Source: a virus. From it: 21,333 bases of DNA. The stretch is taken from positions 1-21,333 of the IMG/VR virus record IMGVR_UViG_3300046167_000348; one strand, given 5' to 3'. Positions 9,237 to 16,465 of this stretch are shown here, one piece after another. The translations under genes were made by a program, and so were the position numbers. How positions within the stretch are numbered: position 1 is the first letter of the stretch; every line of letters starts with the position of its first letter. The notes beneath the pieces were generated by a model. It searched no databases, was not told the DNA's origin, and saw only the letters and a program-made list of their open reading frames with translations.

Positions 9237-10487
9237 TTACCGCCATTTTCTGAGAAACCGCCATGCGATCCCTGCTTTCTCGCAAACCAACTGCCAAATA
9301 CCTAAAAGCATCCGCTGCATGGCTCGACCAATCATGACAGGCGAAGACCTAAAGCTCCTAGTGCGCTCGTTATACGCTCTATGATACTGACGCAAACACT
9401 CCAAACCATGTCCGCACTTCTCCCTGTCAAACCATAAGCGCGGGATCAACATCTGACCCGCATGTATGCCATCTTCAATCGGCAACTTAGGAACAACTCG
9501 AAAGTTCAAACCCAAGTCCCAAGCAACCTCACGCCGGCTCTTCCCAGATCCTAACTCCCGAACCTCAATGTCGTGCGGCGCATTGTGGTCGCCATACAAA
9601 TAGTTCTTAGACGTTAAAATTTTGCAGTAATGAGGCAACCCCTCACCACGGGCCTCGTAAAAGTCTATCACATGTATAGCACGACCAACCGATTGCGTAA
9701 ACCATATCGCTGTGCTGTCGCCAACACCCAAGTCCCACCAAGTGTCAACACGCACACTCGGGTCATAAGGAACATTGGAAATCCGCCCATCCAACTGAGC
9801 AACCTCCATCTCCTTGCCATAAACAGCACCAGGAACATTCGCATTCCAAGAACACTCAAATTCCTGCTGATACTGGTCATGCGTCATCATAGACTTGGCA
9901 GCGTCCAATTCCTCATCGTCCAGCAAGCCTGTCTCACTCGCCTTGTAAACCGCAGCCAACCAATCAGGATTAGAAGCCGCCTCCTCATACTTATCAAAAA
10001 AAGCATTGTGACCCTTCGGCGTCCCGACAAACACACACCAACCCTTGCGATCAGATAACGCCGGCCTCAACACTTCAGGAAAAACATTCTCAGGCATGTC
10101 GGCAACCTCATCCATAACACAACCGTCAAGATAAATCCCACGCAAGCTGTCTGGATTCTCAGCGCCAAGCAAGCTGATCCTAGCACCATTGGGCAAATCA
10201 CAACGCAATTCAGTCTCATGAAACCGAACATTCGGGATCTTGCCAGCAAACTGTTTTATATAATCCCAAGCAACATTCTTCGCCTGACGATAGGTGGGCG
10301 CCATATAGGCATACCGGGGGTTCTCTTTTCCAGACATCAAGGCATCGCGTAAAACATGGTTGATCGCCCAGACCGTTTTGCCAAAGCGGCGGTGGCAAAC
10401 AACAACGCCCCAACGCTTTTGAGACATCTCATTGTGCAACCGTAGCTGTAACTCCCTCGGCTCATAAGGAATCTCAATGTGCGTCAA
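9237..10487 (-). CDS. Terminase large subunit (C terminus frameshifted)
   Basis: The ATPase-nuclease that packages DNA into the procapsid. Seen here: a Walker A-like CHRRFGKT at residues 31-38, Walker B YLDGCVMDEVADM, the coupling motif FVGTPKGHN, and nuclease motif WWDLGVGDSTAIWF. As it stands it ends in 26 residues unlike the family (MIGRAMQRMLLG...). Adding one base at about 9335-9340 gives SSPVHDWSSHAADAFRYLAVGLRESRDR...DYDPFAA with a stop at 9211, restoring the HAADAFR motif that holds the third catalytic Asp. The repaired protein is about 425 aa. The start ATG overlaps the preceding stop (ATGA). Confidence 0.95.
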   Translation of the reverse strand: MTHIEIPYEPRELQLRLHNEMSQKRWGVVVCHRRFGKTVWAINHVLRDALMSGKENPRYAYMAPTYRQAKNVAWDYIKQFAGKIPNVRFHETELRCDLPNGARISLLGAENPDSLRGIYLDGCVMDEVADMPENVFPEVLRPALSDRKGWCVFVGTPKGHNAFFDKYEEAASNPDWLAAVYKASETGLLDDEELDAAKSMMTHDQYQQEFECSWNANVPGAVYGKEMEVAQLDGRISNVPYDPSVRVDTWWDLGVGDSTAIWFTQSVGRAIHVIDFYEARGEGLPHYCKILTSKNYLYGDHNAPHDIEVRELGSGKSRREVAWDLGLNFRVVPKLPIEDGIHAGQMLIPRLWFDREKCGHGLECLRQYHRAYNERTRSFRSSPVMIGRAMQRMLLGIWQLVCEKAGIAWRFLRKWR

Positions 10488-10678: not shown

Positions 10679-10980
10679 AGTGTCTCTAGCTCCGGTGTAA
10701 TATAGAGGTATAAGGGCGCGCGGTTTTGCGGGGGGTGGGGGGGTCGGTTTGCGCAAAACGCATGGCTTAACCGTAGCGTCATAATAACTATTATGTTAAA
10801 TAGAACGTAAGGCATTGTTGTCGCTGTAGATTTTATTCTAGACTGCCATGCATTAAACGCAAACCACAAGATGTTGTGCCTACCCTGCCTCGCTGACCTG
10901 GCGCCGAGGTGTCTCAGCATGCCGGCCTCACGCGCGTAGCTGTCAACGACAGGATGTGTTGTATACACATGATCCGACAT
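10675..10980 (-). CDS. Doubtful ORF after small terminase
   Basis: The ATG at 10980 overlaps the small terminase stop (TGATG), which would suit coupling. The first 50 or so residues (MSDHVYTTHPVVDSYAREAG...) could be protein. The later part (NRPPHPPQNRAPLYLYITPE) reads like translated non-coding DNA and contains a promoter-like site and a 16-bp palindrome. No family is recognised. Either a short gene broken by an indel, or chance. Confidence 0.2.
   Translation of the reverse strand: MSDHVYTTHPVVDSYAREAGMLRHLGARSARQGRHNILWFAFNAWQSRIKSTATTMPYVLFNIIVIMTLRLSHAFCANRPPHPPQNRAPLYLYITPELETL
10780..10795. promoter_or_regulatory. 16-bp palindrome in the 301-bp stretch without a confident gene
   Basis: CATAATA-AC-TATTATG is a perfect dyad of 7-bp arms with a 2-bp centre. 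It lies about 35 bp downstream of a promoter-like site (10835-10862) and upstream of the large terminase unit. It could be an operator or a short hairpin in the leader. The stretch 10679-10979 also holds a G6-T-G7 tract at 10730-10743. Confidence 0.4.
10835..10862 (-). promoter_or_regulatory. Promoter candidate before large terminase
   Basis: Reading on the minus strand, TTGCGT (10862-10857) and TAGAAT (10840-10835) are separated by 16 bp and resemble sigma70 -35 and -10 boxes. It would start a transcript about 150 bp before the small gene at 10678. Pattern only. Confidence 0.35.
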
Positions 10981-11444
10981 CAATGCTTTGTTACTCTCTC
11001 TTCCTTTTGGTCAGGCACAACCTCAGTTGTATTGACCTCAACATCTCCACCAGCCCAACTGATTGTGAACGTCTGGGCTTGTGGTTGGTCTTCCTTCTTG
11101 TCCCTTACGCCCCAAGGCATGTTCCGTGCTAGCGTCCATTTCAATGTGTCGATCTCAAGCCTACGCCGTTGCACCTCTGCGTTAGCCAGCCTGTTATCCT
11201 CAAACGTAGGAAGTGGCGACACTGCCAGGTTGTTGATGTGGTCAGTGAAGTATTCTGACTGCATCACTCTGCCTCTGCGGTAGACCTCATACAGATCATC
11301 GTCACGCAGCACGGCTTGCATGACGCCTTGATAGGTTGGCATGCCTGCTGTCTTGAGTATGTCTTTGAGTGTTTCGCCTACTGCCAAGCGGTCAGCGATC
11401 TTGTGCATCAGCTCGGCGTTAATTTTTACTGGTTTCTTTGCCAT
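10980..11444 (-). CDS. Terminase small subunit
   Basis: The 154-aa protein begins MAKKPVKINAELMHKIADRLAVGETLKDILKTAGMPTYQGV, an N-terminal helix-turn-helix of the kind that recognises the packaging site, then a DLYEVYRRGRVMQSEYFTDHINNL helix and an oligomerisation segment VQRRRLEIDTLKWTLARNMPWGVRDKK. This order matches Sf6-type small terminases. It binds phage DNA and hands it to the large subunit. It is the first gene of the leftward late operon, with a GAGG ribosome binding site at good spacing and a promoter candidate 24 nt upstream. Confidence 0.85.
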   Translation of the reverse strand: MAKKPVKINAELMHKIADRLAVGETLKDILKTAGMPTYQGVMQAVLRDDDLYEVYRRGRVMQSEYFTDHINNLAVSPLPTFEDNRLANAEVQRRRLEIDTLKWTLARNMPWGVRDKKEDQPQAQTFTISWAGGDVEVNTTEVVPDQKEERVTKH

Positions 11445-11467: not shown

Positions 11468-11495
11468 ATCATAGCACAAAAAAGGCCCAGCGCAA
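11468..11495 (-). promoter_or_regulatory. Late-operon promoter candidate, extended -10
   Basis: On the minus strand TTGCGC (11495-11490) is followed after 16 bp by TATGAT (11473-11468), preceded by TGC to give an extended -10 (TGCTATGAT). It sits 24 bp before the small terminase start. The -35 lies inside the terminator hairpin at 11478-11507, so the replication operon ends where the late operon starts. Confidence 0.6.
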
Positions 11496-11507
11496 TAATG
11501 CTGGGCC
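11478..11507 (-). terminator. Rho-independent terminator of the replication operon
   Basis: On the minus strand, GGCCCAGC (11507-11500) pairs with GCTGGGCC (11491-11484), an 8-bp stem with an 8-nt loop, followed by six T residues. It is about 60 nt after the stop of the last replication-operon gene at 11569. Confidence 0.85.
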
Positions 11508-11568: not shown

Positions 11569-12156
11569 TCAGAATGGGATGTCATCATCAAACACTTTCG
11601 GCTTTGCTCGGATGTCGATCACCTCTGCTGCTGGAAAGGATTCTTTGACTGCCTTCTCGAACTCTCCTGCTTTGTGATCTCGGAAGTTTCGGTATGCGAG
11701 TGCCACCTCTCTGAGCGTCAGCAGCTCTAGGTCTGGCCGTTGTTCTTTGATCTTCTGCCACGACCTTCCGTCTTTCATGATGCCAAAGGTCTCGCCATCC
11801 AGTTCCATCTCCCAGATGTCTGTTGAGGCTCTCTGTGCTCCAAGGCGCTCTGCTTCTGCATCCATTGCTTTGAGGCCTCTTACGACGACCTCTGCTCTGA
11901 CCTTACATTCTTCTGGATTGTTTTCTTCTATAGCCTTGTTCATCTTTGCCATTGCTGATCCATACTTCTGCGCTGTCTCAACGCTTACCAATTCTGGCAG
12001 CATGTCGATGCCCCACTTTGTGTCCATCTGTATTGCCAGCCGATCCATTGGTGCGATTGCATAGTCACACATGATTTGATCCTTATGTGCTTGCGGGTTG
12101 AATATTCTGTCTGCCTTCTTTTGGCGCCTTGGCCTCTTGGGCTTCTGCGTGTTCAT
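11569..12156 (-). CDS. Replication-operon protein with SSB-type C-terminal tip (DDDIPF)
   Basis: The 195-aa protein starts with a basic, disordered-looking segment (MNTQKPKRPRRQKKADRIFN), has a helical middle and a compact region WEMELDGETFGIMKDGRSWQK, and ends KPKVFDDDIPF. The last six residues equal the tip of E. coli SSB, which docks to PriA, RecQ, ExoI and other SSB partners. The body is not an OB-fold SSB that I can recognise. ATG 12156 is chosen because GGAG precedes it by 6 nt; upstream ATGs at 12159 and 12162 and GTG 12168 are alternatives. It is the last gene of the replication operon. I infer a role in recruiting or blocking host repair/replication enzymes. Confidence 0.75.
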   Translation of the reverse strand: MNTQKPKRPRRQKKADRIFNPQAHKDQIMCDYAIAPMDRLAIQMDTKWGIDMLPELVSVETAQKYGSAMAKMNKAIEENNPEECKVRAEVVVRGLKAMDAEAERLGAQRASTDIWEMELDGETFGIMKDGRSWQKIKEQRPDLELLTLREVALAYRNFRDHKAGEFEKAVKESFPAAEVIDIRAKPKVFDDDIPF

Positions 12157-12162
12157 CATCAT

Positions 12163-12310
12163 CTCCACAGTTCATCCACCACAGTTTCGTTTAATCCACA
12201 TTCCACCACAGTAGTATGTCTAATACATACAACTACTGTGGTGGAACTATCTGTGGCCTTTTCTTCCACAGTTCCACAGTTCATCCACAGTTCAGAAAAA
12301 CAACTGTGGA
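12163..12310. repeat. Candidate replication origin: TCCACAGTT iterons, DnaA-box-like sites and a long hairpin
   Basis: TCCACAGTT occurs at 12164-12172, 12265-12273, 12273-12281, 12284-12292 and inverted at 12302-12310. CCACAGTT is at 12179-12186 and CCACAGTA at 12206-12213. Two 9-mers differ from the DnaA box TTATCCACA by one base: TAATCCACA (12192-12200) and TCATCCACA (12281-12289). A perfect 14-bp inverted repeat pairs 12201-12214 with 12233-12246, and a nested 6-bp stem (12214-12219 / 12225-12230) has the loop CTAAT. It lies between the primase-helicase and the SSB-tip gene. RSF1010-type Rep systems also use iterons next to RepA/RepB genes, so an origin is a reasonable inference. Confidence 0.7.
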
Positions 12311-12325
12311 AGTGTGGAAAGCGCA

Positions 12326-13471
12326 TCAAACTTCCTCCCAATTGATCCATTCGCCGACCACTACGCACGGCACATCTCTTCCGCTTCGGCTGTCTCTTAT
12401 CTCTGCGACTTTGAGGTTGCCTGTGCTGATCCACTTCTTGACGATTGCCTTTGCCTTTGCTTTGTCCCCTGGCTTTTCTGTGTCGAGGTCGAGCTGTTCT
12501 GCGACTGCATTGCCGATCCAGTTCTTTGCCCTGATGTCTGATCGGTATGCCTTGTCGTTCTCCTCTGCCTTGCCAACTGTTCTCTGGACATCGTAGAGGT
12601 CTTTGGCTGTCACGCCGTCGAATAGATTAGGAAGCTTAAATTCTGTGGCTACACCAATCAACTCAGAGTTTGCTATTTCGACTGAGATCATGCGGCGGTA
12701 AGTTGCCTTGTCTGATGGCGGTGCGAGGTTTGCTTTGCCATCGTCCTGGCGGAAGATGCCGAGTGCTTCTTGTTCGTCCACCCCGAGTGCCATTGCGTCT
12801 TCTGGAGTGATCCTGTTTATCACTCTTGCTGCTCTTGCTGCACCGATCAGACTGCCTGCGCCGCGCACTGAATCAACCGTTGCGTCTTCTCCGTTGCCTT
12901 TACGGATGTGATGCACAAGCTGTACTGAGCTGTTGGTGTCTCTTGCCAGCTTCCTGAGCATTGCTACGACTGCCTGGATGCTGCCATTATTATTCTCATT
13001 GACCAGGTGGGCTGATATGAATGGATCTAATATTACGACACCTATGTTGTTCTCTTTGATCTTGCGGATCATAAATGCCAGCAGCTCATCGTTCTGGATC
13101 AGGCCGTCCCTGCCTTCTGCTGCCAGCGTGATCTGCATGGTGTCCTCACCGTCCATGAACAGCTTTCCTTTGATGTCATCTGGCTTGAGGCCATAGTGCT
13201 GCATGGCTGCTATGGTTCTCATTTGAAGTTCTGAGATAGGATCTTCCAAATTTATGACCCAGGTGTTGCACTGCTCCTTGACCCTTACGCCAAGCAGGTC
13301 TTTGCCTGTCGATATTGCCAGTGCTTCCACAATGATTGCGGATGTCTTGCCTATGCCGCCGGCAGATGCTGTGACGCTGATATACTTCTTGATGTAATCG
13401 TATCCATAGACCCACTCTCTGCGCGGGCAGTGTGAGCGCATCAAACATTTCGTAGGGCGTGGGCCATTCAT
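12326..13471 (-). CDS. Primase-helicase, C-terminal RepA-like helicase segment
   Basis: This segment carries a RecA-fold hexameric helicase domain of the AAA_25/RepA type: REWVYGYDYIKKYISVTAS leads into Walker A ASAGGIGKTS, then a WVINLED strand, Walker B-like VVILDPFISAH, and the sensor region VQLVHHIRKGNG followed by DSVRGAGSLIGAARAAR. The first 15 or so residues of the open frame are out of frame. The true protein continues from 13176-14516 through ...ALTLPRREWVYGYD... after removing one C at 13425-13427. The repaired fusion spans 12326-14516, about 729 aa. It would unwind DNA at the phage fork. Confidence 0.88.
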   Translation of the reverse strand: MNGPRPTKCLMRSHCPRREWVYGYDYIKKYISVTASAGGIGKTSAIIVEALAISTGKDLLGVRVKEQCNTWVINLEDPISELQMRTIAAMQHYGLKPDDIKGKLFMDGEDTMQITLAAEGRDGLIQNDELLAFMIRKIKENNIGVVILDPFISAHLVNENNNGSIQAVVAMLRKLARDTNSSVQLVHHIRKGNGEDATVDSVRGAGSLIGAARAARVINRITPEDAMALGVDEQEALGIFRQDDGKANLAPPSDKATYRRMISVEIANSELIGVATEFKLPNLFDGVTAKDLYDVQRTVGKAEENDKAYRSDIRAKNWIGNAVAEQLDLDTEKPGDKAKAKAIVKKWISTGNLKVAEIRDSRSGRDVPCVVVGEWINWEEV

Positions 13472-14516
13472 TGCCTGTGTCAGGCTCTGTGTAGCTCTGT
13501 GTTGGCTCTGTGGCTATTTGCAGTGTCTGGTTCTGCTGCTCCATGCGCTCGGCTGCTGGGTCTGGCGGTGGCGTCCAGCCTTTTGCTCTGGCTCCGTCGA
13601 TTGCCTTCTGCACCTCTGCCCTTGTTTCGTCCACTGTGTAGCCGCCCAAGGTGAAGCCATCTGTGATCGCGTGGATCTCTTCGTCTGCCAAGCCTTTGTT
13701 AACGTATGATCCAACCAGGCGCACCATATTGTGATGCCAATCCTCGCCTGCTAGCACGTTCTGGACTGCCAGTTGCCTGTCCATTGCTTGCTGGCCGAGG
13801 TCTATACTCATTGTGCTAGCAGCCTGTGGCTCTGCCTTTGGGAAGGCGCGCATCATACGTTCAAACTCTACTGGTTCTCTGTCTGTTGAGAACTCTGTCC
13901 GCATTGTGACCAGCTCTGGAACATATCCTTTGTCTTGTTTCTTTTGGTTGGGCCATGAGACTGTGCCTGCCACGCGCATGATGCGTGATGGGTTAACGAC
14001 TGCTGCATCTGTTTGGAGCGATGCGGCGATTGCTTTTTGTACATCACGCCATGCTTGCATGTTTTGCACTGGCTCTTCTAGCTGCCAGTATGCGTGGCCT
14101 CTTGCGAATGGCGTTGTTCCTGTCTTGATCGACATGGTGAACTTTGGGCCGGCGAAAGACAGGATGTTTTCCATTGCGCCTGCTGTGTCTGCGTCTGCGA
14201 AACAGTAAAACGCGGCGAGGATGTCTGTGTCTTTGGCTGCTTGGCCTGCCGGTATGTCTATGATTGGGTCAATTGGATTGATGCACATGTATATGTTTTG
14301 CTTGGCAGCGTTCATTGCCTCGGCATGCTGGGCTGCGTCTTCTATGTTTTTTAGTGCAAATCTTGCGGCGTTTGCTGATCCAGATTGCGATATAGAACGT
14401 ATCTCTATGAGCGGTTGGCCTACAGTGTTCCAATTTTCTGTGATCTGTGCTATGAACTGCTTAATGATTTCGGTTTTGGGAGCCATTTCCATTTGTTCTT
14501 CCACTTCCATTTTCAT
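13176..14516 (-). CDS. Primase-helicase, N-terminal RepB-like primase segment
   Basis: Residues to about 360 are genuine. They hold a RepB-like primase pattern: IYMCINPIDP, FYCFADADTAG with acidic metal-binding residues, MSIKTGTTPFARGHAYWQLEEP, and DAAVVNPSRIMRVAGTVSWPNQKK, as in RSF1010-type primases. A flexible linker leads to the helicase. The last 80 or so residues (GLWIRLHQEVYQRHS...) are out-of-frame reading of the helicase. The ATG at 14516 follows a very strong GGGGAGGA site. The gene lies after the DUF669 gene and a hairpin at 14535-14564. A primase fused to a helicase is a familiar phage solution. Confidence 0.87.
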   Translation of the reverse strand: MKMEVEEQMEMAPKTEIIKQFIAQITENWNTVGQPLIEIRSISQSGSANAARFALKNIEDAAQHAEAMNAAKQNIYMCINPIDPIIDIPAGQAAKDTDILAAFYCFADADTAGAMENILSFAGPKFTMSIKTGTTPFARGHAYWQLEEPVQNMQAWRDVQKAIAASLQTDAAVVNPSRIMRVAGTVSWPNQKKQDKGYVPELVTMRTEFSTDREPVEFERMMRAFPKAEPQAASTMSIDLGQQAMDRQLAVQNVLAGEDWHHNMVRLVGSYVNKGLADEEIHAITDGFTLGGYTVDETRAEVQKAIDGARAKGWTPPPDPAAERMEQQNQTLQIATEPTQSYTEPDTGNEWPTPYEMFDALTLPAQRVGLWIRLHQEVYQRHSICRRHRQDIRNHCGSTGNIDRQRPAWRKGQGAVQHLGHKFGRSYLRTSNENHSSHAALWPQAR

Positions 14517-14567: not shown

Positions 14568-15188
14568 TTAAAACTCTGCGTCAACCGGGGCTGGTGCAGG
14601 AGCTGGGTCAGGCTTGGTCTCGGGCGCGGGTGCAGCTTCTTCGACTGCTATTCCTGCGGCGACACCTTCTTTCAGGCTGTCTGGTTTGTCTACAGCACTA
14701 ACCTCAAAAATTGGTACGCATGTACCGCCCTTAGTATACTTAACACTTTTCGCATCAATAAGTTTTAGCTTTGCTGCTTTGCCTTCTGGAATTTTAGAAA
14801 GCTCTGGCGCAAGGCTTGTGAGAGCATCCCAAACGCCGGCGCCTGCCTGCTCCCACATGGCGACCTTGCCGCCACCGATAGCGCACTTGACCGAAAAGCC
14901 TTTCTTGTAATCATCTCCAGGCTTAGTCATCATTTGACTGACTGTTGGGTTCCACTTCCATTCTGGAGCTACGCCGACCATGCCGTCCGACCTCTGCCAA
15001 CCTGTCTTGAGGCTTTGCAAGTCAAGAATAAAACCGGCTGTGCTTGCAGCTTCAAACTCAACCTTCGCTCCACCGTCACGGGTGTAGAACTGCTTTGCGC
15101 GGACAGCGCCGTCCTCTGTTCCTTTAGCTGACCATTGCAGGAAGGTGTTAATATCGGAGCCTGATGCCCCTAGATCTATTTCAAACAT
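14568..15188 (-). CDS. DUF669 family protein (ssDNA-binding-like)
   Basis: The 206-aa protein starts MFEIDLGASGSDINTFLQWSAKGTEDG and contains the DUF669-like pattern F.L.WSA..T......A..F and a long beta-rich domain (FILDLQSLKTGWQRSDGMVGVAPEWKWNP). The C-terminal 30 residues are Pro/Ala-rich and end PVDAEF, resembling the flexible acidic tail of single-stranded DNA-binding proteins. DUF669 proteins sit in phage replication/recombination operons, often beside exonucleases, and may bind ssDNA. The start has an AAAGGATACAAA leader. It lies between the nuclease and the primase-helicase. Confidence 0.75.
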   Translation of the reverse strand: MFEIDLGASGSDINTFLQWSAKGTEDGAVRAKQFYTRDGGAKVEFEAASTAGFILDLQSLKTGWQRSDGMVGVAPEWKWNPTVSQMMTKPGDDYKKGFSVKCAIGGGKVAMWEQAGAGVWDALTSLAPELSKIPEGKAAKLKLIDAKSVKYTKGGTCVPIFEVSAVDKPDSLKEGVAAGIAVEEAAPAPETKPDPAPAPAPVDAEF

Positions 15189-15248: not shown

Positions 15249-15998
15249 TTAGATGCCATACATTTCTTCCCGAAGATCTTCTGCCCCGTTCCAATAGAAC
15301 GTGTTAGGGTTGACGGGTATGACCTCTCTAATATCTTCTGCGCTGCCTGCGCGCAGGAACTTTTCAAGCCGAGCGATCTGCTTCTTGGCCTTGCCAAGGA
15401 TCTCTGTTGGATCGCCGTCTTCAAGCATGTTGGTTTTCTTTGATGACACATAAAGAAACTTGACCACCTGGTTGCCTCGGGCCTTCTGATAGATCGCGCG
15501 TTGCAGTTGATGCTCTGGGGACATCTTGCTTGGGATGCGTCCCGTTGTTTTTAGATCAATCACTACGCCGTGATCGGGAAACACAAAGTCAAGGTAGCCG
15601 ATCACAGGGATCTCAAAGTCATCTGTCTTGGCTGTGATGCTGATCTTTGTTTGCCCGTCTTCAGGGAACTCAGGCTTGCCGTAATGCTCAAGCTCTTGGA
15701 GTGTAAGCTCCATGCACGGCTCAATCATGGCGCGCTCTTTGGTAATCTTTTCGTCAGCCATGAAGAACATGCTGTCAAACTTTTCCAATGCCTGATCCAG
15801 CGCGCCGGCTTTGTGCAGCTTGCCGGTCAGTGTGTTGGCAACTGCTTCCTCTGTGCATATGCCACGCATTGCAGCGGCGCCCATAGGTGTGCGCTTCTTG
15901 AATAGATATGAGGCCACCCAAACGTCTGGCGCGTTAGTCCAGAGGTTGATTGATGATGCTGACAGGTGCTTTATGCCGTGCTTTTCAAAACCGTTCAT
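15249..15998 (-). CDS. PD-(D/E)XK nuclease (Cas4/RecB-like)
   Basis: The 249-aa protein has the core motifs of the superfamily: SASSINLWTNAPDVWVASYLF near the N terminus, GYLDFVFPDHGVVIDLKTTG with the metal-binding Asp and the D-x-K catalytic pair, and QLQRAIYQKARG matching the QxxxY motif. No cysteine cluster for a Cas4 iron-sulfur site is evident. It would act as a phage exonuclease in recombination or end processing. Its ATG overlaps the stop of the RuvC-like gene (ATGA), so they are coupled. Confidence 0.85.
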   Translation of the reverse strand: MNGFEKHGIKHLSASSINLWTNAPDVWVASYLFKKRTPMGAAAMRGICTEEAVANTLTGKLHKAGALDQALEKFDSMFFMADEKITKERAMIEPCMELTLQELEHYGKPEFPEDGQTKISITAKTDDFEIPVIGYLDFVFPDHGVVIDLKTTGRIPSKMSPEHQLQRAIYQKARGNQVVKFLYVSSKKTNMLEDGDPTEILGKAKKQIARLEKFLRAGSAEDIREVIPVNPNTFYWNGAEDLREEMYGI

Positions 15999-16465
15999 GC
16001 TGTTAGCTTTCCGTATAGGGCCAAGAGACAGGCCTCACTTCTGCCATCGTCCTTGACACGTTTAAACAGGTCAGCCTGTGCAGGCCATCTCTGGCTTGCG
16101 AGTGATCGGCTGAGTCCTTTTTCTTTGTTCAGTCCAAGGTGCGACTTCCACTTAGCCGGCGTGACCATTGTCATGGGCAGCTTGTGCGCTGCGATAGCCA
16201 TCTGCGTGGCGCCGTAGGCCTGGCCGAAACGGAACATGCTGCTGACACCGTTGCCTCTGACGGCACTGACCTGCTCCAAGATAACATGATGCGGCTCATC
16301 GCCCTCGGGTGTGAGTATCTCGTGCAGCTCATACAGGTTCAGCTCTGTCTTGCCTTTGATGTTTTTATAGACCGGCATGTCATGCACCTCGACGCTGTTG
16401 CTGTCAGGCCAGTAGAATGCAATCGCACCAGTGAAGCCTGGGTCTATGCCGACAAAGACTGTCAT
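15995..16465 (-). CDS. RuvC-like Holliday junction resolvase
   Basis: The 156-aa protein opens MTVFVGIDPGFTGAIAFYWP, the RuvC GIDPG motif with the first catalytic Asp at residue 8. A second acidic residue is in HHVILEQVSAV, and the closing motif is DDGRSEACLLALYG, where phage members often have Glu in place of the bacterial Asp. It would resolve branched DNA during replication or packaging. It overlaps its neighbours by 4 nt on both sides (ATGA). Confidence 0.88.
   Translation of the reverse strand: MTVFVGIDPGFTGAIAFYWPDSNSVEVHDMPVYKNIKGKTELNLYELHEILTPEGDEPHHVILEQVSAVRGNGVSSMFRFGQAYGATQMAIAAHKLPMTMVTPAKWKSHLGLNKEKGLSRSLASQRWPAQADLFKRVKDDGRSEACLLALYGKLTA

Follow-up and report, generated by a model that had tools for sequence, protein, structure and literature searches.

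An SSB-type docking tip on a predicted helical phage protein, and its possible exchange with the SSB gene of the same operon

Why should a phage protein that does not look like a single-stranded DNA-binding protein (SSB) end in the docking tip of a bacterial SSB? In bacteria, this tip is a hub that recruits many replication and repair enzymes. The question is raised by a gene at 11569–12156, minus strand, in a 21,333-nucleotide stretch of viral DNA (IMG/VR record IMGVR_UViG_3300046167_000348, positions 1–21,333), which we refer to as the window. The ORF runs from an ATG at 12156 to a stop codon at 11569–11571, with an in-frame GTG at 12168 as a possible alternative start. Its 195-aa product, which we call the “partner,” ends ...KPKVFDDDIPF (...RAKPKVFDDDIPF), and the translation bears out the VFDDDIPF ending reported by a sequence-only reading of this DNA. 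The codons of the DDDIPF tip occupy 11572–11589 on the minus strand. The partner was delineated from the ORF, its relatives, and a helical model; the tip from the ORF, its conservation, and synonymous codon variation.

By homology, the partner is close to anonymous. It has no match to PF00436, the canonical SSB family, in the Pfam search, and nothing above cut-off in Pfam as a whole (best E 0.65), NCBIfam (best E 0.092), or PADLOC (none). Its best PHROG match is a family of unknown function at E 0.015, and the best E in a sequence search of the PDB was only 0.19. The AlphaFold2 model, built from an eight-sequence alignment, shows a helical bundle (residues 14–104), a beta hairpin (114–127), and further helices, with a mean pLDDT of 77, a pTM of 0.58, and pLDDT below 50 at residues 1–13 and 184–195. 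The partner is therefore predicted to be a helical protein without an OB fold, and its tail (184–195) is probably disordered; the earlier reading had seen no OB fold and suggested structure prediction as a check, which returned helices and a small hairpin. The partner shares with canonical SSBs an acidic C-terminal tip ending I-P-F at the free end. It also has what a ligand of SSB-Ct pockets needs, a flexible free C-terminus with D-x-I-P-F/W, as judged by pLDDT <50 and conserved sequence.

Some candidate identities can be set aside here. Structural matches in the PDB are common helical bundles, such as the DnaK lid (Z 8.8), within the range that the tool itself warns about for helical proteins, and we have read no function from them. 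One of 13 viral structural matches is labeled terminase small subunit; the partner has no Pfam TerS match, and it is not TerS because the TerS gene is the next one (10980–11444, minus strand; PF20901, E 1e-16) and lies beyond a terminator. An antitoxin or defense protein was also rejected, as the BrnA-like antitoxin match (E 0.092) is below cut-off and PADLOC gave nothing.

The genes around the partner belong to a replication operon. In order, all on the minus strand, these are a RuvC-like Holliday junction resolvase (15995–16465; phrog_1770, E 6e-33), a PD-(D/E)XK nuclease (15249–15998; PF12705, E 6e-7), an SSB-like protein (14568–15188), a RepA-type primase-helicase, and the partner; then come a terminator and the small and large terminase genes. 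That the partner is the last gene of this operon had been proposed from the sequence, and the terminator 3′ of the gene agrees. This intrinsic terminator (11484–11507, minus strand) directly follows the partner gene and has an 8-bp stem with seven GC pairs, then TTTTTT. Terminator-like sites in the region number 8 versus 7.2 in shuffles, that is, no excess, and a 96-nt stretch folds at z −4.9. The primase-helicase (12326–14516) is split into two overlapping frames, the first holding the N-terminal part (13176–14516, minus strand; weak PHROG helicase/primase matches) and the second the RepA/AAA_25 part (12326–13471, minus strand; PF13481, E 5e-31). It is a single 717-aa ORF in relative L043, and the split in the window is either a frameshift or an assembly error. 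The large terminase (9237–10487) is up to 58% identical to those of Pelagibacter phages (56.5% for HTVC010P).

Is the tip more than a coincidence of six residues? Relatives of the partner were sought in IMG/VR, one genome set, and GenBank phages, and both close and distant ones were found. The family is abundant in IMG/VR, where a single scan yielded 358 matched stretches that encode a partner relative. Named carriers are five Roseobacter phages (CRP-811, 821, 822, 823, and 831) and MW202711, in all of which the protein is annotated solely as hypothetical; among bacterial genomes, a relative occurs in one Betaproteobacteria MAG (L166) and in one Roseovarius (L167). Counting partners that are distinct and no shorter than 100 aa, the pooled set comes to 186; of these, 185 are complete and one is cut by a contig end. 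Among the 185, the tip is present in 126 (122 exact, 4 with an extra Gly). An earlier subset comprised 138 distinct partners, with the C-terminus known in 137: 123 carry the exact tip, 4 the tip plus Gly, and 10 neither. When partners are clustered by core identity and the Gly is allowed, the tip is found in 38/43 representatives at 70%, 19/22 at 50%, and 9/10 at 40%.

Within the 123 exact-tip partners, the last position is F or W throughout, −2 is P in 122, −3 is I, L, or V, −5 is D in 120, and −6 is D or E in 107; position −4 varies (P, E, or D), and the entropy amounts to 1.7–3.3 bits from −7 to −30. The same residues are written with different codons: 32 DDPIPF ends occur in 13 synonymous versions, 25 DDDIPF ends in 5, and 13 DDEIPF ends in 10. 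As a control we took 1538 other ORFs of the collected loci (distinct, complete, stop-to-stop, at least 150 aa, leaving out loci L046–L165, which had been selected for DDDIPF). Only five show the tip pattern, every one a gp2.5-like SSB of CRP-type phages. Because the tip is conserved in distant relatives, its codons differ synonymously, and the pattern is rare in other ORFs, we reject chance as its origin. Loss of the tail among homologues and an ordinary SSB with an OB fold had been named beforehand as the results that would sink the idea; most homologues keep the last residues and the model shows no OB fold, and neither check sank it.

A few members of the family stand apart. The partners of L233, L234, L257, and L258 end EDEIPFG, one Gly beyond the tip, which should disturb docking via a free terminal Phe. 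The partner ORF of L356 is 374 aa long, the sole one above 280, and ends NKLKEFLENV; it is possibly a fusion or a read-through. No partner–SSB fusion protein was found among the ORFs of the collected loci. Among named phages, queries with the window SSB-like protein or with either of two distant partners gave no matches. By profile, no partner was detected in Pelagibacter phage HTVC010P, Rhodoferax phage P26218, or Methylophilales phage Venkman, all of which share a related TerL. A profile search did not find the SSB-like gene in HTVC010P, and neither HTVC010P nor P26218 has a tip-pattern ORF among those of at least 60 aa. P26218 has a gp2.5-like match (E 3e-6) without a tip, and its record lists polymerase A; Venkman has one tip-pattern ORF, of 101 aa, ending SEDVPF.

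If the partner carries the tip, what does the SSB of the same operon carry? The 206-aa product of 14568–15188 ends PVDAEF, has no host-type tip, and at E≤1 finds no family in either Pfam or PHROG. It had been labeled DUF669, a label that finds no backing, as there is no PF05037 match among these Pfam results. Nor does it match phrog_112 (gp2.5-like SSB), to which the CRP-811 SSB does match at E 5.8e-16. Its model is beta-rich (pLDDT 69.5), and Foldseek found no PDB match for it at E≤0.001. A second structure aligner gave the phiC31 recombination directionality factor as the best match (9teh_I, Z 6.7 over 142 residues); Rim1, RPA70N, and bacterial SSBs, all with an OB fold, came next with Z of about 2–3.4. 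With moderate confidence, and on the strength of the model, we take it to be an OB-type SSB. The phiC31 match hints that this directionality factor and phage replication SSBs may have a fold in common.

The PVDAEF ending had been described as a weaker version of the tip, and this holds in part. Where the partner has the tip, the SSB-like protein ends [DE]F in 59/70 loci (DAEF, DDMEF, DDDEF, etc.), SW in 5, and otherwise in 6, whereas the full tip sits on the SSB itself in some related phages; SSB-like relatives in L069, L088, and L094 (hhalign probability 96%) end DDDIPF. The two genes lie on the same strand in 187/187 pairs, near copies counted, at a median distance of 2.4 kb.

This leads to the distribution of the tip over the two proteins. 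Where both tails are known, 70 loci have it only on the partner and 56 only on the SSB; 2 loci (L293 and L250) have it on neither protein, and no locus has it on both. The 70/56 ratio should not be read as a frequency because 49 of the 51 home-type SSB-tip loci came from a search that used tip-bearing SSB queries; the other 5 SSB-alone loci have a gp2.5-type SSB. Not part of the split are partners from stretches without a detected SSB-like gene: 56 that bear the tip and one that does not. In loci without a detected partner, the tip is found on 17 distinct home-type and 18 distinct gp2.5-type SSBs, and 31 distinct gp2.5-type SSBs are tipless and lie in stretches where no other ORF ends in a tip. 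“Never both” therefore holds in the sample, and “always one” does not.

Has the tip been exchanged between the genes? Trees from which the tails were left out show 4 changes in the tip state of the partner and 2 in that of the SSB. Independent partner/SSB switch pairs number 1–2 on supported branches and 4 on all branches, and the SSB never changes in the same way as the partner. With so few independent switches no significance is attainable, and an exchange of the tip between partner gene and SSB gene in this phage group is suggestive, not proven. The best, still suggestive, case of a switch is the CRP type, in which the partner is tipless with a GLFEQS-like end and the gp2.5-like SSB ends LDDALPF or LDDDIPW. 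CRP-type partners nest inside the tip-bearing group in a midpoint-rooted tree, on branches of 87–89% that are not starred. The SSB-alone cases otherwise amount to one lineage, the L094 type, with 51/56. Its members are only probable homologues of the partner family: hhalign gives a probability of 19%, an un-iterated profile E 1.3e-5 for L094, and an iterated one E about 1e-25, and the gene is preceded by the SSB-like gene and by a 646-aa ORF, a position like that of the partner elsewhere.

Does the tail matter to the phage at all? It could be truly conserved yet physiologically dispensable. A precedent is Deinococcus DdrB, whose C-terminal motif resembles that of SSB and is reported in the available part of PMC3834827 as not necessary for radioresistance. 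In keeping with this, CRP-type phages lack the tip on the partner and the 31 gp2.5-type loci show none at all, but the CRP-type SSBs carry the tip instead. Since strong conservation together with synonymous codon change argues for selection, we give a dispensable tail hardly any credence. A different proposal makes the partner a decoy, its free tip filling the SSB-Ct pockets of host ExoI, RecQ, RecO, and PriA and so shielding phage DNA or blocking host replication. An exposed tip on a protein without an OB fold would be able to act in this way. The gene, however, sits in a replication operon and its core is conserved well beyond the tail, the partner has no PADLOC match, and a tip split with the SSB would be unexpected of a decoy, which we consider very unlikely. 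The suggestion in the sequence-only reading that the tail might sequester host proteins gained no specific support.

Which proteins, then, would the tip meet? The 18 phage records available (21.7–39.5 kb, possibly incomplete) have no match to PF00436, PF00476, or PF07733 (canonical SSB, polymerase A, and Pol III alpha); PF00136 (polymerase B) gave one 14-bit match, below cut-off. No polymerase A was found in eight L094-type records. As no phage polymerase of the three families searched reaches the cut-off, the fork probably has to be supplied with replisome parts of the host, and judging from gene content these phages probably depend on the host replisome. Likewise, members of the CRP-822-type family without a polymerase rely on host machinery according to the available part of PMC12629253. 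The two bacterial genomes with partner relatives have main SSBs with the endings DYDDEIPF and DLEDDIPF; the Betaproteobacteria MAG has a second, weak PF00436 match without such a tip. Both genomes encode Pol III chi. This subunit is a known SSB-Ct binder. Recruitment of host proteins by the partner tip fits the absence of recognized polymerases and canonical SSBs from the phages and the presence of SSB tips and chi genes in the two bacterial genomes, and the clients of the tip are probably host enzymes. Taken as a whole, the interpretation in the sequence-only reading is partly supported.

Alternatively, the tip may have its docking site within the phage's own set of proteins, on the primase-helicase, the nuclease, or the DNA groove of the SSB-like protein, or it may fold onto the partner's own core, and it would then never meet host enzymes. 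Acidic tails of phage SSBs do fold back or dock on own proteins. The preservation of a separate [DE]F ending on the SSB-like neighbor in those 59/70 loci speaks for such docking, since each tail could have its own customers; so does T7 gp2.5, which requires its C-terminal Phe with T7 polymerase (reference cited in the available part of PMC9917605). Against it, the partner tip follows the bacterial consensus, its I-P-F included, and none of the three polymerase families is found above cut-off in the phage records. On balance we regard own-protein docking as unlikely.

We favor a reading in which the partner is an adaptor at the replication fork or origin, presenting an SSB-Ct-type docking tip in trans, and give it a probability of roughly 0.5. 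It is favored because the tip is conserved, the model lacks an OB fold, the gene has its place in the operon, the tip is never on both proteins in the sample, and no polymerase is recognized. The partner core would bind the SSB-like protein, DNA, or the helicase, and so have its place at the origin or fork of the phage. There the tip would be presented in trans, at a fork coated by a phage SSB without a host-type tip, and would draw in enzymes with an SSB-Ct pocket, such as host Pol III chi, DnaG, PriA, RecO, and ExoI, or phage enzymes. Where the phage SSB has its own tip, the partner has none and would need none, as one tip per module would suffice. L293 and L250, without a full tip on either protein, run counter to the adaptor, and the 31 tipless gp2.5-like SSB loci mean that not every related module carries a tip.

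A broader version is possible, and we hold it only tentatively: a split SSB, in which the DNA-coating part and the host-docking tip reside in two genes of one operon, and the tip has moved over evolution among the helical partner, an unrelated gp2.5-type SSB, and the home SSB-like protein, with at most one tip per replication module. If this is true, coating of single-stranded DNA and recruitment of the host replisome are separable functions.

Where the partner might bind brings us to the gap between the helicase and partner genes. Repeats of the TCCACAGTT type, both inverted and direct, form an array there (12160–12320, no strand), a candidate origin or operator. Upstream of the partner, the longest inverted-repeat arm is at least 11 nt in 85/126 distinct relatives, many of them near copies, versus 0/126 within-gene control stretches. 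The layout is similar in the window, L193, L206, L044, L190, L219, L166, and L152, with short units in inverted pairs, often ~20 nt apart. The unit itself drifts among relatives (TCCACAGTT, TCCACACTT, TCCTCACCT, TTTGTAGTT, and CTGTCCGA). From its sequence, we take the array to be a candidate phage origin with a co-evolving binder.

The partner could be that binder, an initiator on the upstream array whose tip calls in host replisome parts. An array of similar layout and drifting sequence in the helicase/partner gap of many relatives would suit an initiator, as would the basic N-terminus of the partner (PxRQKKxDR in the alignment consensus). The array adjoins the helicase equally, however; in L166 it lies by the helicase, with an HNH-like ORF (by eye) separating it from the partner. 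There are no repeats upstream of the tipless L094 partner, and the window partner has no HTH match in Pfam. An initiator role seems to us quite unlikely.

How does the proposed adaptor compare with what is known? It shares with the bacterial SSB-Ct (E. coli ...DDDIPF) the same six residues, a free C-terminus, and a probably disordered tail; it differs in being helical and predicted to lack an OB fold, and its low-confidence tail is short (184–195). The gp2.5-like phage SSBs (phrog_112; CRP-811 type) carry the tip in the equivalent operon of CRP-type phages, but those are SSBs by family annotation, whereas the partner is a different gene of that operon. For phage HK620, the available part of PMC5928155 describes the last six SSB residues (NDYPPF) as required for Sak4 binding to SSB-covered single-stranded DNA; a phage tail likewise brings in a partner enzyme there, but the tail is on the SSB itself. 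DdrB is a non-phage protein, and no exchange with an SSB gene is described for it in the available part of PMC3834827. The PriB–SSBc chimera likewise puts an SSB tail on a protein normally without it, but it is a laboratory construct and PriB resembles SSB structurally (PMC8509808, available part).

Other phage proteins also bear the tip, among them helicases, ERF, and DnaB_C. A scan of IMG/VR for DDDIPF followed by a stop gave at least 120 stretches, from which 114 distinct ends no shorter than 60 aa were searched against Pfam; among those listed, 30 are PF00436, 3 DUF669, 6 DEAD/ResIII helicases, 1 ERF, and 1 DnaB_C, and many have no Pfam family. The helicases (L082, L105, L110, L118, L157, and L161, picked by eye) form a second non-SSB tip family, and L051, L070, L078, and L116 encode short phage proteins (73–75 aa), probably helical by eye, that end DDDIPF. 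The non-SSB proteins with a Pfam family resemble the partner in having the tip outside SSBs, but they belong to known enzyme families. In the available open-access literature we found no description of the partner family or of a tip shared between an SSB and another phage protein, and the available part of PMC12629253, on CRP-822-type phages, does not mention the partner gene. What seems to be new here, set beside these systems, is a tip conserved through a non-SSB family, together with its apparent exchange with the SSB gene.
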